In this document: piece after piece, positions 37 through 14,291 of the stretch
How the letters are laid out: each line of letters starts with the position of its first letter
Position numbering within the stretch: the first letter of the stretch is position 1
Assembly: GCF_900102795.1 (NCBI RefSeq)
Contig: NZ_FMWG01000004.1
Location: 62,001-126,000 of the forward strand
Direction: 5' to 3'
Source of the DNA: Epibacterium ulvae
GTDB taxonomy: Bacteria > Pseudomonadota > Alphaproteobacteria > Rhodobacterales > Rhodobacteraceae
Length of the DNA stretch: 64,000 nt
Notes under the pieces: generated by a model
The model's input: the letters and a program-made list of their open reading frames with translations, nothing else
Database searches by the model: none
What the model was told of the DNA's origin: nothing
Made by a program: the position numbers and the translations under genes

Positions 37-921
37 ATGAACCAGAACGTTTCAACAAAAGTGCTAGACCGATTGTCTAAGGAATTGGATGAGCTGACAC
101 CCGAAGCGCAAAAAGCTGCGCGCTATGTGCTTGAAAACCCAAGAGATGTTGGGGTTTCAACTGTGCGAGAAATCGCAGATGCGGCAAATGTAAAGCCTAA
201 CACAGTGGTGAGAATGGCGCGCCAAGTCGGCTTCGATGGCTATGACGACTTCCGTGAACCCTTCCGCGAAGCGATTCGAAATGGCGAAGCCTCTTTCCCA
301 GATCGCGTTCGCTGGCTGCAAGATGTGCAGAAAAAAGGCGAAATGGGACATTTGTACGCTGATATGATTTCAGGTGCGATTAAAAATATCGAAGAAACTT
401 TTGCAGGCATTACCGAAGGCGATCTACAGGCCGCAGCTTCTACGATTTGGAATTGCCGAAATGTGTATACCTATGGCGTCGGCGTCAATCACTCCAATGC
501 CAGCAACTTCACATATCTCGCCCGCACCGGGATGGTTCAGTTTTATGCCGTCCCAAGAGCCGGGTCGAATGCCACAGATGACCTCGCATGGGCTGATGAA
601 AGAGATGTGCTGATCGCAATTACATGCAAGCCCTATCGCAGCGATGTCGTCCAAGCCGTGAAAGAGGCCAAACAACAAGGCGTCAAGATCATCGCTCTGT
701 CCGATAGCCCCGCTTCGCCTATTGCACGGATGGCGGATCACACCTTCCAGCTGTCCGTCGAAACGCCTCAGTTTTTCCCGTCCTCCGTAAGCATCATCGC
801 CTTGCTCGAAACATTGCTCAGCTTTGTGATCGCAACATCGACGGATCGAGTCGTGGAGCGGGTCGAAAAATTTCACCAACGCCGTCTGCAACTTGGCTAC
901 TATGAAGAGGAAAATAAATGA
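37..921 (+). CDS. MurR/RpiR family transcriptional regulator
   Basis: This 294-residue protein has the two-domain plan of the MurR/RpiR family. An N-terminal HTH_6 domain covers roughly residues 10-85, with the recognition helix near VKPNTVVRMARQVGF. A SIS sugar-phosphate-binding fold covers about 125-265, including the YGVGVNHSNASNF loop and the DVLIAITCKPYR strand-turn. The start is supported by GGGGAAG 5-11 bases upstream. Its stop overlaps the start of the Rieske gene by four bases (ATGA), so it is co-transcribed with and probably regulates that operon. A paralogue at 5676 shares the same order of motifs and the same C-terminal QRR-LG-Y ending. The inducer is unknown; in this context it may be a betaine-type compound rather than a sugar phosphate. 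Confidence 0.9.
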   Translation: MNQNVSTKVLDRLSKELDELTPEAQKAARYVLENPRDVGVSTVREIADAANVKPNTVVRMARQVGFDGYDDFREPFREAIRNGEASFPDRVRWLQDVQKKGEMGHLYADMISGAIKNIEETFAGITEGDLQAAASTIWNCRNVYTYGVGVNHSNASNFTYLARTGMVQFYAVPRAGSNATDDLAWADERDVLIAITCKPYRSDVVQAVKEAKQQGVKIIALSDSPASPIARMADHTFQLSVETPQFFPSSVSIIALLETLLSFVIATSTDRVVERVEKFHQRRLQLGYYEEENK

Positions 922-2018
922 ACGTAGCTGTTACACATTCACTGGATGCGCATTACTATACTTCTGATGACATTTTTCAGAAAGAACTGAACGGTCTTTT
1001 GGCGCGAACGTGGCAGTTCGCTGGCCATTCTGCAGACATCCCGAATGTGGGCGATTATTTTGCCTTTGAAGTTGCAGGACAAAGCCTCTTTGCAATTCGT
1101 GGCCGTGACAATGTTATTCGCACTTTCTTCAACGTCTGCCAGCACCGGGCCCATGAGATGGTGTCTGGCACAGGTAACACGCGCGTCGTCGTGTGCCCTT
1201 ATCATCAATGGACATATGAGCTAACGGGCGGTCTACGAGCCGGACCAAATATCAAGAATGTTCCAGGGTTTGATCGTAGCAAGATTTGCCTGACCGAAGT
1301 ACGGACCGAAGATTTTTTGGGTTTTATCTTCGTCAATCTGGACAATGAAGCCGCCCCAATGGACGAATGGTATCCAGGTGTGCGCGAAGAAATCTCTGAA
1401 TTCGTGCCGCACATCGACACCTTGGCCCCGCTTGAATGGGTGGAAATTCCAGAAAACTGCAATTGGAAATGCTCCATCGAAAACTATTCAGAGTGTTACC
1501 ATTGCCCCTCCAACCACCCGACCTTCGCCGAAGGGGTGGTCAAACCGGAAACCTATGACATTCAGCCTGCCAAAGACGGTTATGTGCTGCGCCACACAAC
1601 CGAATGTCAGTCTTTGGAAAAGATGACCTATCCGGTTGATCTCGAAAGCAACGCACATGCCGGCGATTATCAAAGTTGGTTTCTATGGCCGATGTTCAGC
1701 TTCCAGTGTTACCCGGGCAATGTCCTAAATACCTATCACTGGCGTGCAAATACGGTTGACACTTGCACCGTCTGGCGTGGCTGGTTCACTGAAAACGGGC
1801 ACGAAAGCGATGTGATCCGCAATCTCGCCATTCAGGACCGGGAAACCACCGTGGAAGAAGACATCCGTCTGGTGGAATCCGTTCACCGCGGATTGAAATC
1901 CAAAGGCTATGTCCCCGGTCCCCTGGTTCTGGACCCGAATTGTGGCGTCTTGAGCGAACATTCCGTCGCAAGGCTCCAGCAATGGATGCGCGAAGCCGTA
2001 GACCAACCCGCGTCCTAA
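918..2018 (+). CDS. Rieske oxygenase alpha subunit, quaternary-amine type
   Basis: The 366-residue protein carries a Rieske [2Fe-2S] site, C74-x-H76 and C93-x2-H96 (CQHRAH, CPYHQW), and a mononuclear iron site with E192-C-Y-H195-x4-H200. This E-x2-H-x4-H arrangement is typical of oxygenases acting on quaternary ammonium compounds (the CntA, GbcA and Stc2 group). Such enzymes hydroxylate the substrate and release an aldehyde or demethylated amine. The next gene is an aldehyde dehydrogenase, which fits an aldehyde product (for example from a choline- or carnitine-like substrate). No classical CntB/GbcB reductase is nearby; the FrhB-like protein and the odd ferredoxin of this operon are the only visible redox candidates. 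The substrate cannot be fixed from sequence. Confidence 0.85.
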   Translation: MNVAVTHSLDAHYYTSDDIFQKELNGLLARTWQFAGHSADIPNVGDYFAFEVAGQSLFAIRGRDNVIRTFFNVCQHRAHEMVSGTGNTRVVVCPYHQWTYELTGGLRAGPNIKNVPGFDRSKICLTEVRTEDFLGFIFVNLDNEAAPMDEWYPGVREEISEFVPHIDTLAPLEWVEIPENCNWKCSIENYSECYHCPSNHPTFAEGVVKPETYDIQPAKDGYVLRHTTECQSLEKMTYPVDLESNAHAGDYQSWFLWPMFSFQCYPGNVLNTYHWRANTVDTCTVWRGWFTENGHESDVIRNLAIQDRETTVEEDIRLVESVHRGLKSKGYVPGPLVLDPNCGVLSEHSVARLQQWMREAVDQPAS

Positions 2019-2075
2019 TTCAAATCAGTCAAAAGCAGCCGAGCACAGATGATTTACCCTCGGCAGGAGAAATTC

Positions 2076-3524
2076 ATGAGTTCTATAAAGGCCTTCTGGC
2101 CGAATTATATCGATGGTGAATGGGTCGACGGCGGCGCAGGCCGGATAGATGTCATCAACCCTGGCACTGGTGAAAAGCTGGCAGAACAGGCAGCGGCAGA
2201 TGCCGCCGATGTCGATCGTGCGGTTCAAGCCGCTCAACGCGTTCATATATCTGGTGCTCTTTCGGGCCTTAGACCGGTTGAACGTGGCCGCATGGTGCAA
2301 GCCATGGGTCGGTTTTTGCTGACTCATATCGACGAAATCGCCGAGGTACTCACACTCGAACAGGGCAAACCTCTTTGGGAAAGCCGGATCGAAATCGAAG
2401 GCGCGGCCCGATATTTTGAATATTATGGCAATCAAGCGGAAACCGTTGAAGGTCGTTCAATCCCATTGGGCGCAGATTACTTCGACTTTACGACCTACGA
2501 ACCATACGGCGTTTCGGCACAGATTATCCCGTGGAATTATCCAGTTGAAATGACGGCCCGTTCTTTGTCAGCAGCTCTCGCGACAGGCAACACGGTTGTG
2601 ATCAAAACGCCAGAGCTCACCCCACTGACCAACGCATGGTTTGCCCATGCCGCTGAATCCGTTGGCCTGCCAAAAGGTACCGTGAATATCCTATGCGGCT
2701 TGGGCCATACAGCCGGTGCTGCACTATCGGCGCACCCATTGGTCAATCAGATCGTCTTTACAGGATCCGTCCCAACGGGGATCGCAATCGCGACTGCAGC
2801 GGCGCAAAACGTGGTCCCATGTGTTTTAGAACTGGGCGGCAAATCTGCTGCGGTGGTTTATGATGATGCCGACCTAGACGCCTTCACCAATGATGTGCGC
2901 TGGGGAATTTTCTTCAACGCAGGGCAAGTTTGCTCAGCAATGTCTCGCGTGATCGTACACGAAAGCGTTCATTCCGAATTGCTTGAACGATTGTCTGCCA
3001 TGGCATCTGATCTGGTGGTTCAGCCAGGTATCGAAAGCCCGGAATTCGGATCAAACATGGGTGCTATGGTCAGCGAAGCGCAGCGTGATCGCGCTTTTAA
3101 AATGGTCGATCAGGCAATTCATCAGGGCGGCAAAGCCGTGATTGGTGGAAACAAGCTGAACAGACCAGGTGCCTTCCTAGAGCCAACAATTCTGGACGTT
3201 GCCCCAGATGTAACCATCGCACAGGAAGAAGCCTTTGCACCTGTTCTATCTGTTCTGAAATTTCAGAGCGATGAAGAGGCCATAAGGATTGCAAACGGCA
3301 CCCCATATGGGTTGGTCGGCGGCGTCTTCACCAAAGATATCAACCGGGCAACCAAAGTTGCGCGTGACATGCGCGCTGGTCAGATTTTTGTAAACGAATG
3401 GTATGCTGGCGGGGTCGAAACGCCGTTTGGGGGCTATGGCAAATCTGGTTATGGCCGGGAAAAAGGGCGCGAAGCGCTTTGGAACTATGTACAGACCAAA
3501 AACATCGCAATCAAATTAGCCTAA
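2076..3524 (+). CDS. NAD(P)-dependent aldehyde dehydrogenase
   Basis: A full-length ALDH-superfamily enzyme of 482 residues. The oxyanion asparagine lies in the PWNYP motif, the general base is E252 in LELGGK, and the nucleophile is C286 in NAGQVCS. An earlier in-frame ATG at 2049 would add nine residues, but GGCAGGAG at 2061-2068 places the ribosome binding site before 2076. It follows the Rieske gene by 57 bases in the same operon and most likely oxidises the aldehyde made by that oxygenase to an acid. Betaine-aldehyde, malic-semialdehyde or succinic-semialdehyde-type substrates are all possible; the sequence does not decide. Confidence 0.88.
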   Translation: MSSIKAFWPNYIDGEWVDGGAGRIDVINPGTGEKLAEQAAADAADVDRAVQAAQRVHISGALSGLRPVERGRMVQAMGRFLLTHIDEIAEVLTLEQGKPLWESRIEIEGAARYFEYYGNQAETVEGRSIPLGADYFDFTTYEPYGVSAQIIPWNYPVEMTARSLSAALATGNTVVIKTPELTPLTNAWFAHAAESVGLPKGTVNILCGLGHTAGAALSAHPLVNQIVFTGSVPTGIAIATAAAQNVVPCVLELGGKSAAVVYDDADLDAFTNDVRWGIFFNAGQVCSAMSRVIVHESVHSELLERLSAMASDLVVQPGIESPEFGSNMGAMVSEAQRDRAFKMVDQAIHQGGKAVIGGNKLNRPGAFLEPTILDVAPDVTIAQEEAFAPVLSVLKFQSDEEAIRIANGTPYGLVGGVFTKDINRATKVARDMRAGQIFVNEWYAGGVETPFGGYGKSGYGREKGREALWNYVQTKNIAIKLA

Positions 3525-3530
3525 TCATCC

Positions 3531-4766
3531 ATGAAGCATCCGCAATCAGTAAAAGACGTTGTGAATGCCGGGCTTTGCATCGGTTGCGGCCTGTGCGAGG
3601 CGTTGGCTCCACGTCGTTGGAAGATGGCCTATACCGATGCGGGGCGTTTGCGCCCTGCTTTGGTTGGGCCGGGTTCAGATGCGGAGATATTGAAGGCCTG
3701 TCCCGGTGCAGTTGCGGTACCTAATCGGGAAACCGCTAAAAACCTTGACCCCATCTGGGGACATTATCACCGGATGGAGGAGGCTTGGGCCGGTGATCCC
3801 GAGAGCCGTTACCGCGCGGCAACCGGTGGTGTGTTAACAGCCTTAGCAAGCCACCTTCTGCACACTGACAAAGCCAAATTTATTCTACATTGCGCCGCAG
3901 ACCCCGACGCCCCGATGAGGACAAAATGGTGTATCAGTGAAACCCCAAGCCAACTCGTCTCTCGCGCAGGGTCTCGGTATGGGCCAAGCGACACGCTTGC
4001 AGGCCTAGAAATCGCACTTGCCAGAAACGAACCCTTTGCAATTATTGCAAAACCCTGTGACGCAGGCGCCGTCCGTGCGCGCGCCAAGATTGATCAGCGA
4101 TTAAACCAAAACCTCGTCGCACTTCTGGCTTTGGTCTGTGGCGGCGCGTCTGATCTTGGTAAATCCACTGCCGTTTTAGACGAATATGAATTAGCCGAAG
4201 ATGAGCTGACGCTTTTTCGCTATCGCGGTTATGGCAATCCGGGGCCCACACGGATCGAAACCCGCGATGGCCGCAGTTTTGAAAAGAACTATCCGGAAAT
4301 GTGGGCGGACGAGAGTGGCTGGCGCATCCAAAGCCGCTGTAAAGTCTGCCCCGATGCACTGGGAGAAGCCGCCGATATTGCCGCAGCAGATATTTGGCCG
4401 GGCGCTGTACCAGAAGGCGAAGATGACGGATTTAACGGTGTGATCACGCGTACATCGGCGGGCGAGGCTCTGTACCAGTCCGCTTGCCGTGCAGGTGACC
4501 TTCTCACAGGGGCTGCGATCACCCCGCGCGAATTCGACGCCTATCAGCCTCATCAGGTGAATAAAAAACACGCACTGGCCGCACGGCTGCGCGGCATGAA
4601 CTCCGCTGGTTCAGTGATCTATGCCCATGACCAAGCCCTGCGCATTGCAGAGCTGGATCGTCGCAACAGGAATGAAGAGATCGGTACATGCGATCGCGTC
4701 CGCATGGGTCGGTTTTTTGAAGAAGTACAAACGTTTTCCGAAGGAGAAACAGAAAATGAACAATGA
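3531..4766 (+). CDS. FrhB-like coenzyme F420 hydrogenase/dehydrogenase beta-subunit family iron-sulfur flavoprotein
   Basis: The 411-residue protein begins with a ferredoxin-like C16-x2-C19-x2-C22 motif (CIGCGLC) and a CPGAV cysteine near residue 60. The FrhB/FdhB domain follows, with FAIIAKPCDAGAVRA, LVCGG, a C-x2-C pair in CKVCPDALGE and the family's DIAAADIWPG stretch. Members bind FAD/FMN and [4Fe-4S] clusters and move electrons between flavin and iron-sulfur partners; most bacterial members do not use F420. It starts seven bases after the ALDH stop and overlaps the next gene by 11 bases. Its position in a Rieske operon that lacks an ordinary reductase suggests it feeds electrons to the oxygenase, which is inference. 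Confidence 0.8.
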   Translation: MKHPQSVKDVVNAGLCIGCGLCEALAPRRWKMAYTDAGRLRPALVGPGSDAEILKACPGAVAVPNRETAKNLDPIWGHYHRMEEAWAGDPESRYRAATGGVLTALASHLLHTDKAKFILHCAADPDAPMRTKWCISETPSQLVSRAGSRYGPSDTLAGLEIALARNEPFAIIAKPCDAGAVRARAKIDQRLNQNLVALLALVCGGASDLGKSTAVLDEYELAEDELTLFRYRGYGNPGPTRIETRDGRSFEKNYPEMWADESGWRIQSRCKVCPDALGEAADIAAADIWPGAVPEGEDDGFNGVITRTSAGEALYQSACRAGDLLTGAAITPREFDAYQPHQVNKKHALAARLRGMNSAGSVIYAHDQALRIAELDRRNRNEEIGTCDRVRMGRFFEEVQTFSEGETENEQ

Positions 4767-5139
4767 CCTTTTTGAACATGGCCTGGAGCAACGCAAAGCA
4801 ACGCTTGGCGCCCAATATGTTGAAAAAAACCTGGCCGCTGCGGACGATTTCACACGCCCATTTCAAGAAGCGATGACCGCATGGTGCTGGGGCTTTGGCT
4901 GGGGTGATGACACGATCGACGCAAAAACACGTTCGATGATGAATCTCTCTATGATCGGCGCGCTCGGGAAAATGCATGAGTGGGAAATCCACTTAAAAGG
5001 CGCGCTCAACAATGGCGTCACCAAAGAAGAAGTCCAATCCATCATCCATGTGATTGGCATCTATTGTGGTGTTCCTCAGTCATTGGAATGTTTCCGTGTC
5101 GCACGCAAAGTGCTGACCGAACGTGGCCTGTTGGACTAA
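4756..5139 (+). CDS. carboxymuconolactone decarboxylase-like (AhpD fold) protein
   Basis: This 127-residue helical protein matches the carboxymuconolactone decarboxylase fold: TRSMMNLSMIGALGKMHEWEIHLKGALNNGVT, then EEVQSIIHVIGIYCGVPQ, is the family's core at about 55-110. It lacks the C-x2-C of the peroxidase (AhpD) branch, so it is more like the cofactor-free decarboxylase/isomerase branch. The start at 4756 is fixed by AAGGAG at 4741-4746 and overlaps the FrhB-like gene by 11 bases, indicating translational coupling. Its role in the Rieske pathway is unknown; it may act on a downstream acid. Confidence 0.8.
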   Translation: MNNDLFEHGLEQRKATLGAQYVEKNLAAADDFTRPFQEAMTAWCWGFGWGDDTIDAKTRSMMNLSMIGALGKMHEWEIHLKGALNNGVTKEEVQSIIHVIGIYCGVPQSLECFRVARKVLTERGLLD

Positions 5140-5146
5140 GGATTCG

Positions 5147-5464
5147 GTGGCTCAGATCACCGATATCGAATTTGATGGCACCTCTCACAAATTCGATATG
5201 GCTGTTGGGTCGACAGGCATGAAAAGCGCCCGCGACAATACCATCAAAGGTATTGACGCCGGCTGCAAAGGCATCTGCGCCAGAAGTCACGTTTATATAG
5301 ACAAGGCTTGGTCAGATCGTCTTCCGTCAAAATCTGAGATCGAGGAAGACATGCGCGACTTTACCTTCAAGCCAGACCTGATGACGTCTCGTCTAACGCG
5401 CCAATGGAAAATCACATCAGAACTGAATGGTTCGATTGTGTACCGTCCCGAACCGCAACTCTGA
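5147..5464 (+). CDS. degenerate adrenodoxin-type ferredoxin lacking three of four cluster cysteines
   Basis: The 105 residues align end to end with [2Fe-2S] ferredoxins of the adrenodoxin/FdVI type: the GIDAxC loop, HVYID-AW-D-LP, E-DM-DF, TSRL-x-Q-K and the PE-Q tail are all present. The cluster loop reads C40-K-G-I-C44-A-R-S-H48, where the family has C-x5-C-x2-C-H. Two residues are missing and the second and third ligands are gone. R85 (codon CGC, 5399-5401) replaces the fourth ligand of the SRLxCQ motif. Only C40 remains. A GTG start at 5147 with AAGGA just upstream gives an uninterrupted frame. It ends the Rieske operon, where a working ferredoxin would be expected. It is either inactive or has a non-redox role. 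Confidence 0.75.
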   Translation: MAQITDIEFDGTSHKFDMAVGSTGMKSARDNTIKGIDAGCKGICARSHVYIDKAWSDRLPSKSEIEEDMRDFTFKPDLMTSRLTRQWKITSELNGSIVYRPEPQL

Positions 5465-5473
5465 GAAACGGGG

Positions 5474-5500
5474 CGACTCACCCAAAATTAAGGTGAGTCG
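5474..5500 (+). terminator. hairpin after Rieske operon
   Basis: CGACTCACC (5474-5482) pairs perfectly with GGTGAGTCG (5492-5500) around a nine-base A/T-rich loop, ten bases after the ferredoxin-like gene. It is followed by TTCCTC rather than a clean T-run, so termination may be weak. It separates the operon from the next RpiR gene. Confidence 0.55.
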
Positions 5501-5675
5501 TTCCTCAAAAACTGCTGAAAAATTGGGGGCTCCGCCGTTCGATGAGCCTATTTTCTGCACAGCAGCATTCAAAGTCGACACTTTTTTACCCCACCTCGAC
5601 ATGGTTCAAAATTCATCCAAATTCTCGAGTTTGTTTTAGTAGACAGATCACCAAACAAATGTTCTAATTTTTCAC

Positions 5676-6578
5676 ATGAATGATTCAAATGTTTGGAAAA
5701 CGAAAAACTCGACCGCTGAAAAACTGCTCGACCAGCTACAGTCGGACATCAAAAACCTGACTCCTGAACTGCGGAAATTTGCAGGTTACCTTCTTGATAA
5801 TCCAAATGAAATTTGCATTTCGTCAATTCGAAAAGTTGCCAAAAACGCGCAGGTCAAACCAAACACGCCGGTCCGTCTATCACAACATCTTGGATTGACC
5901 AGTTATGATGCCTTTCGCGAAATATTTCGCGAAGACATACGCAAAAGCGCGGCTTCATACCCGGATCGCGCCAAATGGCTGCAAAGCCTCTCTGACCGCG
6001 ACGAGATGGATTTTCTATATGCTGCCAGCGCGGAGAACGCGCTTCAAAATATCGAAACGTTTTTCACGGAAACCGATCATCTGGCGATGCAAGAAGCCGC
6101 AAAGGATATCGTTGCGGCCCGACGGGTTTATGCGCTGGGTGTTGGCGTCAACAACGCAATTGTTCAAAATTTTGCCTATCTGGCAAACATGGCGGTGGAC
6201 GGTATCCGTGCGCTGCCCAGCGGTGGCAGTCTACCGGTTGATGCGCTGACACGCGCCGATGAAAACGACCTGCTGATCGCCACGAGCTTTCACCCCTACC
6301 GGCGGGAAGTCAGCGAAGCGATTTCAGCAGCGCTTCAAAAGGGCCTAAAAGTCATTTCGATCTCGGATCGCCCATCCAGCCCGCTTCTAAGCGGAGCCGC
6401 CCACAAGTTTGTGGTCCCCACTTCGACGCCGCAGTTCTTTGTCTCGACCCTTGCATTGACAGCGTTTTTTGAAGTGCTTGTGGGTTTCATCATCGCAGAA
6501 GCTGGCGAAGACGTGGTCAACTCGATTCAGGAATACCACGCGCAACGCCGGGCCTTGGGTGTCTACATTGAAGACTGA
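5676..6578 (+). CDS. MurR/RpiR family transcriptional regulator (paralogue)
   Basis: This 300-residue protein is a paralogue of the regulator at 37-921. The N-terminal HTH_6 region includes VRKVAKNAQVKPNTPVRLSQHLGL-like residues around 50-75 and AFREIFREDIR. The SIS domain at about 135-270 contains YALGVGVNNAIVQNF, DENDLLIATSFHPYRREV and SDRPSSPL. It ends QRRALGVY, like its sister. It precedes the ProX-type binding protein by 85 bases, so it probably controls the betaine transporter, while its sister controls the oxygenase operon. No strong Shine-Dalgarno is visible before the ATG. An additional in-frame ATG three codons away from the start does not occur within the conserved region, so the domain call is unaffected. 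Confidence 0.88.
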   Translation: MNDSNVWKTKNSTAEKLLDQLQSDIKNLTPELRKFAGYLLDNPNEICISSIRKVAKNAQVKPNTPVRLSQHLGLTSYDAFREIFREDIRKSAASYPDRAKWLQSLSDRDEMDFLYAASAENALQNIETFFTETDHLAMQEAAKDIVAARRVYALGVGVNNAIVQNFAYLANMAVDGIRALPSGGSLPVDALTRADENDLLIATSFHPYRREVSEAISAALQKGLKVISISDRPSSPLLSGAAHKFVVPTSTPQFFVSTLALTAFFEVLVGFIIAEAGEDVVNSIQEYHAQRRALGVYIED

Positions 6579-6663
6579 CAAGACCTAAAACCGGCCTCTC
6601 TCCAAAACCAAAAAAAGTGCCTCGAAAAGGGGCCAACTCAATAGTCCACCAAGGAGAAAACCT

Positions 6664-7632
6664 TTGAATACTTATTTGAAACTCACTGCTGCATCCCTCG
6701 CTTTGGGCATCTCTGCCTCTGCAGCTGCCGCAGATTGTGGCGAGGTCACGATCACCGAAATGAACTGGTCCTCTGCCGCCATGGTCACGGCCGTATCAAA
6801 GTTCTTTCTAGAGCAAGGCTATGGATGCGAGGTGACAGCCCTGCCATCCTCCACGGTACCCGCGGTGACCTCCGTTGCAGAAACCGGACAGCCCGACATT
6901 CTGACCGAAATATGGCTGCAAGCAACACCTGCCTATAGCGATCTGGAGAAAGAGGGCAAAATCATCACCGTTGCAAATGTTCTAGAGGACGGTGGCGAAG
7001 AAGGGTGGTGGGTGCCCAAATACCTTGTCGATGAACATCCAGAACTCGCAAAATTAGAAGGTGTTTTGGCAAACCCGGAACTCGTTGGCGCGCGGTTCAA
7101 CAACTGCCCAGAAGGCTGGGGCTGCCGTATTCGTTGGGATAATCTATTGCCAGTCTATGGCGTCGAAGAAGCTGGCATTGAAATCTTCAACCATGGCTCC
7201 GGTGAAACACTCGCGGCGTCCATCGCATCCGCCTATGAAAGCAAAGAGCCTTGGTTCGGCTACTACTGGGGGCCAACATCCATTCTTGGCAAATACCCGA
7301 TGGTTAAAGTGGACCGTGGCCCATACAACGAAGAAGCCTTCACCTGCGCGACCACAGAAGATTGTGCCAATCCACAACCGACGGGTGATGCACCGGCACC
7401 GGTTGTCACTGGCGTAACCCCCTCCCTGCAAAAGCGAGAGCCAGAAGTCGTCGAATTCATGAGCAATGTGGTGTTCCCCAACCAAGTGATGTCTCAACTG
7501 CTGGCATGGCAGGAGGAAAACAACGCATCTTCAGAAGAAACCGCAGTGTTTTTCCTCACCAATCATCAGGACATCTGGGCCGACTGGCTGAACGATGAGG
7601 CAAAATCCAAGCTTGCAGCACTTATCAAGTGA
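6664..7632 (+). CDS. ProX/OpuAC-type glycine betaine/choline ABC substrate-binding protein
   Basis: A 322-residue secreted binding protein. A signal peptide with a hydrophobic core (LTAASLALGISASAAAA) ends near residue 23. The OpuAC domain begins at CGEVTITEMNW and includes a WWVPKYLVDEHPEL segment and several tryptophans suited to an aromatic cage for a quaternary ammonium group. The start is a TTG, supported by AAGGAG at 6651-6656 with a seven-base spacer; no ATG fits the signal peptide. A stable hairpin separates it from the permease gene. Ligand could be glycine betaine, choline, carnitine or a related compound, presumably the substrate of the upstream Rieske enzyme. Confidence 0.88.
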   Translation: MNTYLKLTAASLALGISASAAAADCGEVTITEMNWSSAAMVTAVSKFFLEQGYGCEVTALPSSTVPAVTSVAETGQPDILTEIWLQATPAYSDLEKEGKIITVANVLEDGGEEGWWVPKYLVDEHPELAKLEGVLANPELVGARFNNCPEGWGCRIRWDNLLPVYGVEEAGIEIFNHGSGETLAASIASAYESKEPWFGYYWGPTSILGKYPMVKVDRGPYNEEAFTCATTEDCANPQPTGDAPAPVVTGVTPSLQKREPEVVEFMSNVVFPNQVMSQLLAWQEENNASSEETAVFFLTNHQDIWADWLNDEAKSKLAALIK

Positions 7633-7642
7633 AGCAGCGACC

Positions 7643-7668
7643 AAGCGAGCAGAAATTACTGCTCGCTT
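7643..7668 (+). terminator. intercistronic hairpin between binding protein and permease
   Basis: AAGCGAGCAG (7643-7652) pairs with CTGCTCGCTT (7659-7668) around AAATTA, followed by TT. It lies between the binding-protein and permease genes of one transporter operon. Such hairpins usually lower downstream transcription or protect the upstream message, so more binding protein is made than permease. Confidence 0.65.
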
Positions 7669-7699
7669 TTGATATTTTCGAACGGCGGGACTAGGCGGA

Positions 7700-8737
7700 A
7701 TGACGGATTATTCAGGTACAATTGACGCGCTCGGGCTAAGAGAATGGTGCGATGGGGGTGTCGAGGCTGGCGGTCCGATGACAATGGAGCAGCTGCTCAA
7801 TGCAACCAACGGCACTGCCACAGATGACAAAGGCTTTTTGTCGACCCCATTTCCATCCTTGGATGTGCTTCACAATGCTTGTGGCGCCATCCCCAGAACA
7901 CGCGACATGACGGCTGGAATCGAAGACCTCTTTTTAGCAGTCAAAGCCCCGCTCAAGGCTGTTCTTGATCCGATAACGCAACCCCTAAGCTGGGCCTTAG
8001 ATGGGGCATTGGCAGGCATATTGGCCCTACCTTGGATGGTCACCATCCCTCTGATCATGCTGTTGGTCTTTTATGCGACCCGATCTTTGAAAACCACATT
8101 TATGGTTTTCGGAGGTCTTTTGGTTCTCTCACTCATTGATCACTATACCTATGCAATGCAAACCCTTGCGATCATAATGGTGTGCACTGTTATTTCGGTT
8201 CTGTTTGGCATTCCCATCGGGATCGCAATGTCGCGCAGTGATCGACTTCAGCGTGTATCGCTGCCGATTTTGGATCTACTTCAAACCCTCCCAACCTTCG
8301 TCTATTTGATCCCTCTGATTTTCCTCTTCAGTGTTACCGAAGCCAAGCTTTATGGCATCGCGATTATTCTTTATGCGATTGTACCGGTCATCCGCCTGAC
8401 AGACTTGGGCATCCGCCTTGTGGACAAAGATGTTTTGGAAGCGGTGGATAGCTTTGGCATGAGCTCTCGCCAGCGTCTCATGGGGGTCGAAATACCGCTC
8501 GCCATGCCGAATATTATGGCGGGTGTGAACCAAACCATCATGATGTCCCTCGCGATGGTTGTGATTGCGTCTCTCGTGTCGGCTCCCGGCCTTGGAACGC
8601 TGGTGCTGCGCGGCATCAATAAACTCGAACTCGGTGTGGGACTGGTGGCTGGTCTAGGCATCGTGATCCTCGCCATTCTTCTGGACCGCGTCACCAAAAC
8701 CGCAATGGCACGCGTTAACCGTTCAATGGAGAGCTAA
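7700..8737 (+). CDS. ProW-type glycine betaine ABC transporter permease
   Basis: The 345-residue membrane protein has a long N-terminal soluble segment, then hydrophobic spans from about residue 100. The binding-protein-dependent permease core (about 140-335) includes the EAA-like loop EAVDSFGMSSRQRLMGVEIPLAMPNIMAGVNQ. Length and the large N-terminus fit ProW of the ProVWX/OpuA type. It is followed two bases later by the ATPase gene. Confidence 0.87.
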   Translation: MTDYSGTIDALGLREWCDGGVEAGGPMTMEQLLNATNGTATDDKGFLSTPFPSLDVLHNACGAIPRTRDMTAGIEDLFLAVKAPLKAVLDPITQPLSWALDGALAGILALPWMVTIPLIMLLVFYATRSLKTTFMVFGGLLVLSLIDHYTYAMQTLAIIMVCTVISVLFGIPIGIAMSRSDRLQRVSLPILDLLQTLPTFVYLIPLIFLFSVTEAKLYGIAIILYAIVPVIRLTDLGIRLVDKDVLEAVDSFGMSSRQRLMGVEIPLAMPNIMAGVNQTIMMSLAMVVIASLVSAPGLGTLVLRGINKLELGVGLVAGLGIVILAILLDRVTKTAMARVNRSMES

Positions 8738-8739
8738 TC

Positions 8740-9795
8740 ATGTTTGATCAACAAAGCTCGAAAACCCCAAAAATCGCAATCCGCAATCTGTACAAGATTT
8801 TTGGAACCAGTCCAGAAACAATGGTTGATCTTGCCAAGTCTGGAATGGCGAAACCTGAAATGCTGAAACAGCACCAACACGTGCTGGGTTTGGACGATAT
8901 CAATATCGACATGATGGCCGGGGAAATCACAGTCATTATGGGGCTTTCGGGATCTGGTAAATCTACATTGATCCGTCACTTGAACCGCCTGATCGAACCC
9001 ACCGATGGTCAGGTTCTATTAGATGGCGAAGACGTCACGCAGCTCTCAGCCTCAGGGCTTCAACAACTGCGTCACAAGAAGATGTCGATGGTGTTTCAAA
9101 AATTTGCACTCTTGCCACACCGGACCGTTCTGGAAAATGCAGCACTGGGACCGATTGTGCGGGGCGAACCCGCAGGCCCTGCAAAGGAAAACGCCAAACG
9201 TTGGCTCGAACGGGTCGGCCTTGCAGGCTATGAGGCGAACTATCCGCATCAACTGTCCGGCGGCATGCAACAAAGGGTCGGCATTGCACGCGCCCTATGT
9301 TCTGAAGCTGAAATCATGTTGATGGACGAAGCCTTTTCGGCGCTGGACCCCATCATTCGCACGGACATGCAAAGCCTGCTTCTTGAACTTCAGGAAGAGC
9401 TGCATAAGACGATTATCTTCATCACACATGATCTGGACGAAGCTCTGCGCCTCGCGGATCACCTCGTGGTTCTAAAGGATGGCCGCGTCGTGCAGCAAGG
9501 AGAACCGCAAGGGATTATTCTCAATCCCGAAGATGCCTACATTGAGACATTCGTTGGCGATATCAACCGCGCGCGCGTACTCCGCGTGCGCTCTATCCAA
9601 TCGAGTGATCCAGCCCCTGCCGGATCAGAAACCATATCAGCAACGGCAACGCTCGAAGATGCGATCGAGCGCGCAAAGGGCAACCCTGACGTAATCTTTT
9701 CTGTCTCAGAAGGGAATTCCACACAGGGCAGCTTGAATATGCGACACGTTTTCAAATCTCTAGTCCCGCGTCGCCCTAGTGAAGAAACCAACTAA
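8740..9795 (+). CDS. ProV-type glycine betaine ABC transporter ATP-binding protein
   Basis: A 351-residue ABC ATPase with Walker A GLSGSGKST near residue 70, signature LSGGMQQR near 173, Walker B IMLMDEAFSALDP near 190 and the switch histidine in FITHDLDEAL. The N-terminal extension around KSGMAKPEMLKQHQHVLGL before the first strand is characteristic of ProV/OpuAA. The C-terminal region after residue 245 is short for a paired CBS module (family members are often near 400 residues), so osmosensing through CBS domains may be reduced or absent. It completes the ProX-ProW-ProV transporter. Confidence 0.9.
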   Translation: MFDQQSSKTPKIAIRNLYKIFGTSPETMVDLAKSGMAKPEMLKQHQHVLGLDDINIDMMAGEITVIMGLSGSGKSTLIRHLNRLIEPTDGQVLLDGEDVTQLSASGLQQLRHKKMSMVFQKFALLPHRTVLENAALGPIVRGEPAGPAKENAKRWLERVGLAGYEANYPHQLSGGMQQRVGIARALCSEAEIMLMDEAFSALDPIIRTDMQSLLLELQEELHKTIIFITHDLDEALRLADHLVVLKDGRVVQQGEPQGIILNPEDAYIETFVGDINRARVLRVRSIQSSDPAPAGSETISATATLEDAIERAKGNPDVIFSVSEGNSTQGSLNMRHVFKSLVPRRPSEETN

Positions 9796-10929: not shown

Positions 10930-11766
10930 ATGACCAAATACGAGAAGCCGACCAAATGGGCGAACCCCAAGGTCAAACTGTTCCCCCATCAGGTGGGTTT
11001 CACCTGCCCACCCCATGATTACGACGCGGCACCATCAGATTTCTTGCGCATGTCGCCGCGCAGCGTGGGCGTGCATGGCCGGATGCTACACGTACCGGAC
11101 TACGCCCACCGGTTAGATCAGAGGAAAAAGAACTTTGGTCTGCTGGAAGAATTCGTCGAATGCATGGCCAACAATGGCGTCGACGTCTGCGGTCAAGTTG
11201 GATCAAACTGGGTCCATGCCAGTGGGCTGGGTGTCGAAGGTATTCGACAGCATTGCGAAATGCTGAGCGACAAATACCAAACACCATTTCACATGTCTGG
11301 CTACGCAATGGTCGAAGCCCTACGCGACCGGAACGTTGAAAAGGTGGCCCTAAACGCCTGCTACCACCGCGATACCTGGTACCAGGGCACTGTTAACTTT
11401 TTGAAAGAAGCTGGGTTTGATGTCGTTTGGGCCGGCAACTTCTTGGATCAGGGCTGGTTTGCCACACAAGACCAAGTCGATGAGTGCATCTGGTGTTTTG
11501 ACGAAGAACTCATCTGGAAGTCCTTTGATTATACCGCCGAAAAAGCGCCAAATGTGGACGCCTATCTGATCAACGGTATGAGCAATTATCGCCGCGAAAG
11601 TGACGGCATTGCCCAGCGTCCAGTTCACTACGAAGTCGAACTCGAAAAACGTCTTGGCACTCCGGTCATCGGCCACGACACCGCCCTTTACTGGCGCATT
11701 TACAAAAGCTTGGGCATTGCCCCAGCAACACAACAGGGCAGCTTGCTCTCTTCTTTGAAAGGTTAA
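10930..11766 (+). CDS. Asp/Glu racemase superfamily protein (maleate isomerase/arylmalonate decarboxylase-like)
   Basis: The 278 residues show the two-lobed pattern of the maleate isomerase/arylmalonate decarboxylase branch. There is an N-lobe with GVDVCGQVGSNW, carrying a possible catalytic C87, a second lobe starting near KVALNACYHRDTWYQG, and the family's closing motif GTPVIGHDTALYWRIYKSLGI at about 240-262. The second-lobe cysteine usually found in a CT-type loop appears replaced (LINGMSNYR), so the chemistry may differ from a two-cysteine isomerase. It lies two bases before the sulfotransferase gene, so it should act in the same pathway. The family call rests on motifs and fold order; the substrate is unknown. 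Confidence 0.6.
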   Translation: MTKYEKPTKWANPKVKLFPHQVGFTCPPHDYDAAPSDFLRMSPRSVGVHGRMLHVPDYAHRLDQRKKNFGLLEEFVECMANNGVDVCGQVGSNWVHASGLGVEGIRQHCEMLSDKYQTPFHMSGYAMVEALRDRNVEKVALNACYHRDTWYQGTVNFLKEAGFDVVWAGNFLDQGWFATQDQVDECIWCFDEELIWKSFDYTAEKAPNVDAYLINGMSNYRRESDGIAQRPVHYEVELEKRLGTPVIGHDTALYWRIYKSLGIAPATQQGSLLSSLKG

Positions 11767-11768
11767 TC

Positions 11769-12521
11769 ATGCATAAGATTGTAGCTCTGTGGGGCATCCC
11801 ACGCTCAACCTCTACCGCTTTCGAATGGATGATGCGCCAGCGCGGCGATCTGGATTGCCTGCATGAACCCTTCGGCGAAGCGTGGTATCAGGGTGAAAAC
11901 CCCATGTGGCCACGGTTTACAACCGGTGCGAAAACAACAGCGGGGCTGACCTTGGAAAGCGTCTGGGACGACATCAAAGCCCGCGCCGAAAAAGGCCCTG
12001 TGTTCATTAAGGATTTTCCTCACTATATCAATCATATGTGGGATCCTGAATTTCTGTCGAACTTCACCCACGCCTTCCTGATCCGCGATCCGGCGAAAAC
12101 GATCACATCATTGTACAACAAATGGCCGGATTTCGACGAACTCGAGGTCGGATTTCCCGAACAACGCGCGTTATTTGACCTGCTGACTGCGCTACACGGC
12201 ACCCCTCCTCCGGTGATCGACAGTGATGATTTGTTGGAAAATCCCAATGAAATGACAGAAGCGTTCTGTGACTCTGTAGGCATCCCCTTCATCGAAAGCG
12301 CCTTGAGCTGGCAGCCGGGTGGCGATCCCTCCGCGCACAGCTGGTGGGATGGCGGCTCATTCCATTCAAACTTGGCGAAATCAACCGGGCTCACCCCACA
12401 AAAGCGCAAATATATCGATCTGGACAAGACACCAGAACGCGTACGCCGTGTGCATCATCGAATGAAACCCCATTACGACCATCTGTTCCAACACCGCCTT
12501 CGCGTGTCTGAAACCGTTTGA
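11769..12521 (+). CDS. PAPS-dependent sulfotransferase family protein
   Basis: This 250-residue protein has the two PAPS-binding elements of sulfotransferases. The 5'-phosphosulfate loop is WGIPRSTSTAFEWMM (about residues 8-22), and the 3'-phosphate motif is FLIRDPAKTITSLY (about 99-112). H37-E-P-F follows the first loop, as in other small-molecule members. No signal peptide or membrane segment is seen, so it is cytoplasmic. It sits two bases after the racemase-like gene and 12 bases before a fused ATP sulfurylase/APS kinase that makes its donor. Acceptor unknown: a hydroxylated betaine, choline or another alcohol is plausible from context. Confidence 0.78.
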   Translation: MHKIVALWGIPRSTSTAFEWMMRQRGDLDCLHEPFGEAWYQGENPMWPRFTTGAKTTAGLTLESVWDDIKARAEKGPVFIKDFPHYINHMWDPEFLSNFTHAFLIRDPAKTITSLYNKWPDFDELEVGFPEQRALFDLLTALHGTPPPVIDSDDLLENPNEMTEAFCDSVGIPFIESALSWQPGGDPSAHSWWDGGSFHSNLAKSTGLTPQKRKYIDLDKTPERVRRVHHRMKPHYDHLFQHRLRVSETV

Positions 12522-12533
12522 AAGAAGGCCCCA

Positions 12534-14291
12534 ATGAACAAGAAAATTCAAAGTAACTCAAAGTCTTATAAACTTGATTACCCACCTTACGGCCCGATAC
12601 CCGAACTTTATGTCTCTTATGAGTCAGCCCAAAAGCTGAAAGTAGAGGCCGCAGAACTCACAAGCCATACCCTCACGCCGCGCCAGATTTGTGATCTGGA
12701 ACTCCTGATGAACGGCGGATTTTACCCGCTAAAGGGATTTCTGTCCGAAGCTGATTATAATGGTGTCGTTGACGACATGCGACTGGCAGATGGCCGCCTG
12801 TGGCCCATGCCCATTACCCTTGATGTGTCCGAAGGCTTTGCCGATGCCATTGAGCTGGGCCAAGATATTGCCCTGCGCGATCAGGAAGGCGTCATTCTTG
12901 CAACGATGACGGTCACCGACCGCTGGACCCCGGATAAGGCGCGCGAGGCAGAAAAGGTATTCGGAGCCGACGATCAGGCGCATCCTGCGGTGAACTACCT
13001 CCATCATGAAGCTGGCAAAGTATATCTGGGTGGACCAGTCACAGGCATTCAAACCCCGGTCCACTATGATTTCAAAGCCCGCCGCGATACCCCCAACGAA
13101 CTGCGGGCCTTTTTCCGCAAAGTCGGATGGCGCAAAATCGTGGCCTTTCAAACAAGAAATCCATTGCATCGCGCGCATCAAGAATTGACATTTCGTGCCG
13201 CAAAGGAAGCAGAAGCAAACCTGTTGATCCATCCAGTGGTGGGCATGACAAAGCCAGGTGATGTGGATCACTTTACCCGTGTCCGCTGCTACGAAGCTGT
13301 GTTGGACAAGTACCCCGCCTCAACCACTTCCATGTCACTTCTTAATCTCGCGATGCGTATGGCCGGCCCACGAGAGGCGGTCTGGCATGGGCTTATTCGA
13401 CGCAACCATGGCTGTACCCATATTATCATTGGTCGCGATCACGCTGGCCCAGGGAAAAACAGCCAGGGCGATGATTTCTATGGCCCTTATGACGCGCAGG
13501 ATCTGTTTAATGCTCATAAGGAAGAAATCGGCATCGAAATGGTCGATTTCAAACACATGGTCTACGTGCAGGAACGCGCGCAATATGAACCAGCTGATGA
13601 AATCACAGATAAGGACAAGGTGACAATTCTGAATATTTCAGGAACTGAACTGCGCCGCAGGTTGGCGGAAGGGCTGGAAATTCCAGAATGGTTCAGTTTT
13701 CCTGAAGTTGTTACAGAACTCAGAAAAACCAAGCCACCGCGCGCGAAACAAGGGTTTACCGTCTTTTTCACCGGGTTTTCGGGATCGGGAAAATCGACCA
13801 TTGCAAATGCGCTTATGATGAAACTCATGGAAATGGGGGGGCGACCGGTGACATTGCTGGATGGCGATCTTGTACGCAAAAACCTCTCTTCCGAACTCGG
13901 GTTTTCAAAAGAGCATCGCGATCTGAATATTCGTCGCATTGGTTATGTTGCATCCGAAATTACCAAAAATGGCGGCATCGCCATCTGCGCCCCAATTGCA
14001 CCCTATGCCACAACGCGCCGCGCTGTGCGCGAAGACATTGAAGCCTTTGGCGCCTTTGTCGAAGTCCATATTGCAACCACAATCGAAGAATGCGAACGGC
14101 GCGACCGGAAAGGCCTTTATAAACTCGCCCGTGCCGGAAAAATCAAAGAGTTCACAGGTATTTCCGACCCATATGATGTGCCACAAACGCCAGAGCTACG
14201 CTTGGAAACCGAAGGCACTGATGTCGACAATTGCGCCCATCAGGTGGTGCTCAAGCTTGAGCAGATGGGGCTGATCTCTGGCGCATGGTAG
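12534..14291 (+). CDS. bifunctional sulfate adenylyltransferase / adenylylsulfate kinase
   Basis: The 585 residues fuse an ATP sulfurylase (about 1-390) to an APS kinase (about 410-585). The sulfurylase part has the nucleotide-binding QTRNPLHRAH motif near 205 and GRDHAGPG near 300. The kinase part has the P-loop GFSGSGKST near 420 and the DGDLVRKNL and GFSKEHRDLN motifs. Together they convert sulfate and ATP to APS and then PAPS. Plain assimilation to cysteine does not need PAPS in many alphaproteobacteria, and the gene is in an operon with a sulfotransferase, so it most likely supplies PAPS to it. Gene names sat and cysC apply to the two halves. Confidence 0.93.
   Translation: MNKKIQSNSKSYKLDYPPYGPIPELYVSYESAQKLKVEAAELTSHTLTPRQICDLELLMNGGFYPLKGFLSEADYNGVVDDMRLADGRLWPMPITLDVSEGFADAIELGQDIALRDQEGVILATMTVTDRWTPDKAREAEKVFGADDQAHPAVNYLHHEAGKVYLGGPVTGIQTPVHYDFKARRDTPNELRAFFRKVGWRKIVAFQTRNPLHRAHQELTFRAAKEAEANLLIHPVVGMTKPGDVDHFTRVRCYEAVLDKYPASTTSMSLLNLAMRMAGPREAVWHGLIRRNHGCTHIIIGRDHAGPGKNSQGDDFYGPYDAQDLFNAHKEEIGIEMVDFKHMVYVQERAQYEPADEITDKDKVTILNISGTELRRRLAEGLEIPEWFSFPEVVTELRKTKPPRAKQGFTVFFTGFSGSGKSTIANALMMKLMEMGGRPVTLLDGDLVRKNLSSELGFSKEHRDLNIRRIGYVASEITKNGGIAICAPIAPYATTRRAVREDIEAFGAFVEVHIATTIEECERRDRKGLYKLARAGKIKEFTGISDPYDVPQTPELRLETEGTDVDNCAHQVVLKLEQMGLISGAW

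Follow-up and report, generated by a model that had tools for sequence, protein, structure and literature searches.

Near the beginning of the window, the whole 64,000-nucleotide stretch of Epibacterium ulvae DNA analysed here, a Rieske oxygenase operon contains a ferredoxin gene in which three of the four ligands of the [2Fe-2S] cluster are gone, which raises the question of whether the product still serves the oxygenase in some other capacity or is the relic of a lost electron carrier. The reading frame runs from a GTG start codon at 5147 to a stop codon at 5462-5464 and encodes 105 amino acids, with no internal stops and no frameshifts. In a phmmer search against solved structures the best match was ferredoxin VI (1e9m, E 6.3e-26, residues 3-105), with further matches to ferredoxin 3hui (1.3e-17), other ferredoxins and putidaredoxins, and judged by these alignments the protein is of the FdVI/putidaredoxin type, with homology beyond chance over the whole domain. 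To ferredoxin VI, putidaredoxin and adrenodoxin it is homologous over its full length, 30 columns being invariant in an alignment of five sequences, but it differs from them in the loss of three of the four cluster cysteines, in a loop shorter by two residues and in the lack of any match to the Pfam model Fer2 (PF00111, threshold 21 bits) at E<=10. The same model scores 44.6 bits on the ferredoxin of the genome designated G415, described below, and 49.1 bits on the window genome's own paralogue. With the ISC ferredoxin model TIGR02007 the window protein reached 22.3 bits, below the curated 132.1 bits, and an AlphaFold2 model built from its single sequence had a mean pLDDT of 35.6, which gives no information on the fold.

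The loss of the cluster site is best seen in the loop, where the canonical ADCGGACACSTCHVYVD is aligned with AGCKGICARS--HVYID in the window. Only C40 (5264-5266) is kept among the four ligands: the second is replaced by R46, whose AGA codon is two changes away from a cysteine codon, the third was deleted together with a neighbouring residue (6 bases, in frame), and the fourth is R85, so that the four-cysteine pattern C-x5-C-x2-C ... C is unmet. This in-frame deletion within the cluster loop is the only indel of the gene relative to ordinary ferredoxins. C40, C44 and H48 (5288-5290) are retained with spacings of 4 and 4, and all three are among the invariant residues of the five-sequence alignment with ordinary relatives; C44 corresponds to a conserved cysteine outside the ligand set. 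By established knowledge of the family, a protein without three of its ligands would be unable to hold a normal four-cysteine [2Fe-2S] cluster. An earlier note on this DNA had described the same open frame with C40, C44, H48 and R85 (CGC), the loss of three ligands, the FdVI-type protein within a Rieske operon and the impossibility of a normal cluster, and on all of these points it agrees with the alignments, with the phmmer match to 1e9m, with the Pfam assignments of the neighbouring genes and with what is established for the family. The loop residues that it gave were also right, but their start had been placed at 5249, five codons early. One of its alternatives, a freshly inactivated gene, finds no support, however. 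Between the inferred ancestor and the window ferredoxin lie 39 amino-acid changes and at least 51 nucleotide changes, at least 8 of the nucleotide changes fall in the cluster site, the deletion not counted, and two hits each are needed to explain 12 of the changed codons, three of which are in the loop; because of these multiple changes, the ligand loss cannot be ascribed to a single recent lesion.

The genes of the operon and the features around them are listed in Table 1. All six genes are on one strand, and because the ferredoxin starts 7 bases past the CMD stop codon, with AAGGA ahead and a hairpin behind, it reads as the last gene of the unit; the hairpin was left unflagged by a terminator scan and has no clear T run. 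The oxygenase is closest to CntA and carries, as SECYHC, the E-C-x-x-C motif which, in the available part of the source, is described for group V Rieske monooxygenases (PMC10952381). Despite this likeness to the CntAB and GbcAB systems, no dedicated FMN/[2Fe-2S] reductase of the CntB/GbcB type is found among the six operon genes at 37-5464, and the GbcA model gives the oxygenase 160.6 bits against a cut-off of 670. At E<=1e-80, none of the 17 other genomes of the genus (one of them, G009, only 67% complete) yields a match to the oxygenase, whereas an FdVI-type ferredoxin is present in 16 of the 17, the exception being G009; for this reason the operon appears to be an addition to the window species, probably acquired by horizontal transfer. 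Downstream, a second RpiR-type regulator (5676-6578) is followed by a glycine-betaine-type ABC transporter (5676-9795 overall). Genes for an arylmalonate-decarboxylase-like protein, a sulfotransferase and an ATP-sulfurylase/APS-kinase lie at 10930-14291, apart from the Rieske operon; at three other loci (L056, L057 and L124) the decarboxylase-like and sulfotransferase genes are found inside the operon, between the oxygenase (RO) and aldehyde dehydrogenase (ALDH) genes, and therefore they probably belong to one pathway with it. Among the 80 loci kept, relatives of the FrhB-like protein (37-71% identity) are spread over Roseobacter-type bacteria, Mesorhizobium, Pelagibacteraceae, Acidimicrobiia and other groups, and some lie near Rieske oxygenases. 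A literature search found no paper on a pseudogene ferredoxin with a Rieske oxygenase, on FrhB with a Rieske oxygenase in Roseobacter or on homarine with a Rieske oxygenase in Ruegeria.

Table 1. Rieske operon, its ferredoxin and adjacent features, in window coordinates
Feature	Position	Strand	Basis
RpiR-type regulator, operon head	37..921	+	Pfam HTH_6 and SIS
Alpha subunit of a Rieske oxygenase, nearest to carnitine monooxygenase CntA among solved structures	918..2018	+	Pfam; phmmer 6y8j E 6e-59
Aldehyde dehydrogenase	2076..3524	+	Best NCBIfam model betaine-aldehyde dehydrogenase, below cut-off; frame open from ATG 2049
FrhB/FdhB-like flavoprotein, N-terminal LCIGCGLC motif	3531..4766	+	Pfam PF04432 E 1.4e-23, PF04422 E 4.4e-13
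CMD-family (carboxymuconolactone decarboxylase-like) gene directly upstream of the ferredoxin	4756..5139	+	Pfam PF02627 E 1.5e-18; 91% to G415
AAGGA, possible ribosome-binding site, 4 bases before GTG	5138..5142	+	Read from sequence
Ferredoxin-VI-type gene, cluster ligands 2, 3 and 4 lost	5147..5464	+	ORF and translation; phmmer 1e9m; no Pfam match
Degenerate cluster loop C40-KGICARS-H48, with C46R and shortened by two codons relative to the canonical loop	5264..5290	+	Alignments
R85 (CGC), in place of the fourth cysteine ligand (alignment column 87)	5399..5401	+	Alignment
13-bp hairpin right after the ferredoxin stop, possible end of transcription unit	5470..5504	+	Fold -22.9 kcal/mol, z -6.5
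Glycine-betaine-type ABC transporter	binding protein 6664-7632, permease 7700-8737, ATPase 8740-9795		

We consider it moderately probable that the gene is a redox-dead and dispensable ferredoxin relic, in slow decay and not freshly dead. The ancestor would have been a normal four-cysteine FdVI-type [2Fe-2S] ferredoxin, encoded at the end of a Rieske oxygenase operon of the quaternary-amine type, and in the window lineage the loss of ligands 2, 3 and 4 would have made electron transfer impossible. The oxygenase may instead be fed by the FrhB-like protein, a possible overlooked electron donor, by an intact FdVI-type ferredoxin or by a reductase-like protein with its own Fer2 domain, and since other donors can feed it nothing would force the cluster to be retained. 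The genome encodes an intact FdVI-type paralogue (53% to the window ferredoxin) and at least three reductase-like proteins of 319-361 amino acids whose Fer2 domain is C-terminal. Pfam also detects FAD and NAD domains in two of these three, and one of them, just past the window end on the same contig (Fer2 at G000:C15:127373), is GbcB-like (276 bits, cut-off 500). Both the identity of the donor and the absence of any remaining function in the ferredoxin are points that we infer.

The history of the same slot in other genomes argues for such a relic. The CMD gene was chosen as marker for counterparts because it lies directly before the ferredoxin. It has a match at E<=1e-35 in 153 of 394 family genomes, from which the best 30 places were taken; with loci from 80 of 115 FrhB-anchored loci, plasmid records and genus searches, 62 distinct CMD loci of at least 74% identity were compared, 58 of them with at least 330 bases downstream. 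A ferredoxin sequence stands next to CMD in three of these, namely the window, G415 and G255; none follows CMD in the remaining 59 (55 with at least 330 bases downstream), and 70 downstream stretches (counting duplicates), searched at higher sensitivity, yielded no further one. In G415, with the gene order rpiR-RO-ALDH-BCCT-CMD-Fdx, the ferredoxin (L186:1171-1491, minus strand) is intact, has four cysteines and begins 6 bases after the CMD stop codon; the two operons differ in the gene upstream of CMD, a BCCT transporter in G415 (Pfam E 4.7e-150) and FrhB in the window. G255, of the genus of G415, has a wrecked ferredoxin in the same slot (L231:13123-13400), its frame shifted, which matches the DNA of the G415 gene at 70.5% (bases 24-152) and 81.5% (bases 256-309); as these two blocks adjoin, about 100 bases are missing from the remnant. 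Neither RO nor ALDH was detected within the 20 kb of sequence surrounding the G255 CMD. At a further locus, in G390 (L233:8743-9385), the CMD-adjacent oxygenase matches fall in two separate pieces covering residues 154-365 only, possibly a broken gene.

The rate of change points in the same direction. FastTree groups the window and G415 ferredoxins with a support of 0.854 and amino-acid branch lengths of 0.95 and 0.17, respectively, and the two are 52% identical, as against 91% for CMD, 87% for RO, 82% for ALDH and 65% for the regulator. Relative-rate counts against six outgroups gave 22-31 changes unique to the window ferredoxin and 6-11 unique to that of G415 (p 0.03 to 1e-4), and the window ferredoxin has thus evolved faster than its intact counterpart. 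No consistent acceleration was seen in RO (16-24 unique changes in the window and 10-16 in G415), in CMD (4-9 and 2-6; p 0.03 with one of four outgroups) or in the RpiR regulator of the operon (27-30 and 39-41). The ALDH, however, is accelerated as well (41-63 against 8-19), and therefore the speed of the ferredoxin is not unique; this acceleration hints that the operon may be a mosaic. The ferredoxin has changed at 20 of 59 near-invariant positions in the window and at 4 of 59 in G415. That count is by itself no proof of decay, since L019, a paralogue that has diverged but keeps its four cysteines, departs at 21 of the 59, although with milder replacements (mean BLOSUM62 -0.33, against -1.1 in the window).

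The rejection of neutrality over the entire branch and the state of the frame weigh against a relic. Pairwise dS is 3.1 to 14.3, above 3 in all five gene pairs, and dN/dS is uninterpretable because synonymous sites are saturated. All that codon likelihood rejects is a model in which the window branch is neutral from end to end (lnL -2972.0 vs -2954.8). When left free, dN/dS on that branch is 0.044, no higher than the background of 0.080 (a gain over one ratio of 0.9 log units), a value left uninterpreted because the branch length is at its bound; in a control with G415 as foreground it is 0.28, and the likelihood gain over the one-ratio model is within 0.8 units. The gene shares with a pseudogene a faster evolution than its intact counterpart, a trait also found in the ALDH, but differs from one in having no stop or frameshift, and it keeps its start codon, a possible ribosome-binding site and its place in the operon. 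If the 18 near-invariant changes were all neutral, the probability of finding no stop would be 0.26, and that of an open frame 0.11, 0.03 and 0.004 at assumed indel/substitution ratios of 0.02, 0.05 and 0.1; if all of the at least 51 nucleotide changes were neutral, the probability of no nonsense codon would be 0.09. With only 5 to 10 neutral changes, however, the probability of no stop becomes 0.71 to 0.47, and for this reason the open frame appears to be weak evidence for retention; it fits a late release from selection.

The main rival reading, which we regard as rather doubtful, is that selection has retained the ferredoxin fold without its cluster, for a part in docking, assembly or regulation within the oxygenase/FrhB system. 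A full-length frame that stays open after at least 51 nucleotide changes, at the low probabilities given above, would be expected of such a subunit, as would the confinement of the sole indel, in frame, to the cluster loop. A precedent exists in the mFDX-like protein (C1-FDX) of complex I in plants and algae, which, in the available part of the report, has a ferredoxin fold derived from a classical ferredoxin and has lost ligands (PMC10069907). According to the same part, the Arabidopsis protein misses one cysteine and binds no cluster, the loss of even one ligand being sufficient to abolish it, yet it is needed for supercomplexes, and most algal versions are without the other three cysteines too (PMC10069907). 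The window ferredoxin resembles these proteins in combining ligand loss with a full-length frame; as far as that part goes, they differ from it in being ligand-less across lineages and in having a demonstrated structural role, while the window gene is one isolated case, in a bacterial operon, known from its sequence.

No comparable conservation is found around the window ferredoxin. Its best family match besides itself is 58% identical (394 family genomes), a class search gave one other match at E<=1e-30 (53% identity, 385 genomes), and a peptide-pattern scan of genome contigs found no close relative. All 37 relatives examined, 18 from the genus (L002-L019) and 19 from the family, keep the four cysteines, and no ligand-less relative was found, at the thresholds used, among the 394 family, 385 class and 17 other genus genomes, collections of one genome per species, with a single assembly for the window species. 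Plasmid ferredoxins are at most 52.3% identical to the window ferredoxin and 67.3% to that of G415; the surroundings of the one on an Alisedimentitalea plasmid include no such operon, and 25 new loci of G415-like ferredoxins in the 394 family genomes have no operon genes within flanks of up to 1.5 kb. A role beside FrhB would also be at odds with the CMD loci: ten have FrhB within 3 kb, and only that of the window has a ferredoxin, none following CMD in the other nine (L057 with only 325 bases downstream). A further locus with FrhB at 3.2 kb from CMD (L050) has no ferredoxin, and a profile search of 80 FrhB loci, of 115 found, detected none. The resulting anti-association between FrhB and ferredoxin at CMD loci is only a hint, with a single intact counterpart behind it. 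A fold kept for another purpose predicts that changes concentrate at the cluster site, and the data lean that way but leave it unproven, with near-invariant changes at 7 of 13 cluster-site positions and 13 of 46 elsewhere (p 0.11, non-significant); some of those elsewhere are radical (V24G, L72R and L98S, by alignment columns).

Accordingly, the docking or scaffold subunit of the earlier note, while possible, gains no support from conservation, no ligand-less relative having been found, or from the non-significant cluster-site concentration. To its question of whether the cysteine-less loop is conserved in homologues from related operons, the loci compared give a negative answer: the G415 gene is intact, the G255 gene is a wreck and no relative examined shares the loop. 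The same note would have taken its reading as refuted by four cysteines in all orthologues of the operon together with relaxed selection on this copy. Half of this is seen: the one intact counterpart found, in G415, has four cysteines, and the window copy evolves faster, while relaxed selection is unmeasurable with saturated dS.

A different metal centre, in which C40, C44 and H48 would coordinate one metal ion or a bridging cluster within a monomer or across a dimer, is quite improbable. The three residues are kept, and one metal ion is bound in the structure of the plant mFDX-like protein according to the available part of its description (PMC10069907). On the other hand, nothing in the sequence demands such a centre, and the window protein may simply have inherited these residues, which do not vary among the ordinary relatives aligned with it. 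A sequencing or assembly error in the loop, conceivable with a single assembly, is scarcely credible in view of independent lesions more than 100 bases apart (the six-base in-frame deletion, the multi-hit codons and R85) and of 39 amino-acid changes across the whole protein.

If the ferredoxin is a relic, as we favour, the locus would document an electron-transfer part dropping out of a transferred oxygenase operon, with three lineages representing the intact gene, the cluster-less gene and the wreckage. Were it still in use, bacteria would have a counterpart of the ferredoxin that plant complex I carries without a cluster; the full version of this idea, a bacterial ferredoxin kept cluster-free as a docking, assembly or sensing partner of a Rieske oxygenase that now receives its electrons from an FrhB-type flavoprotein, seems to us unlikely. 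In either case, the operon raises the question of where Rieske oxygenases obtain their electrons when an FrhB-like protein accompanies them and no dedicated reductase is encoded alongside.
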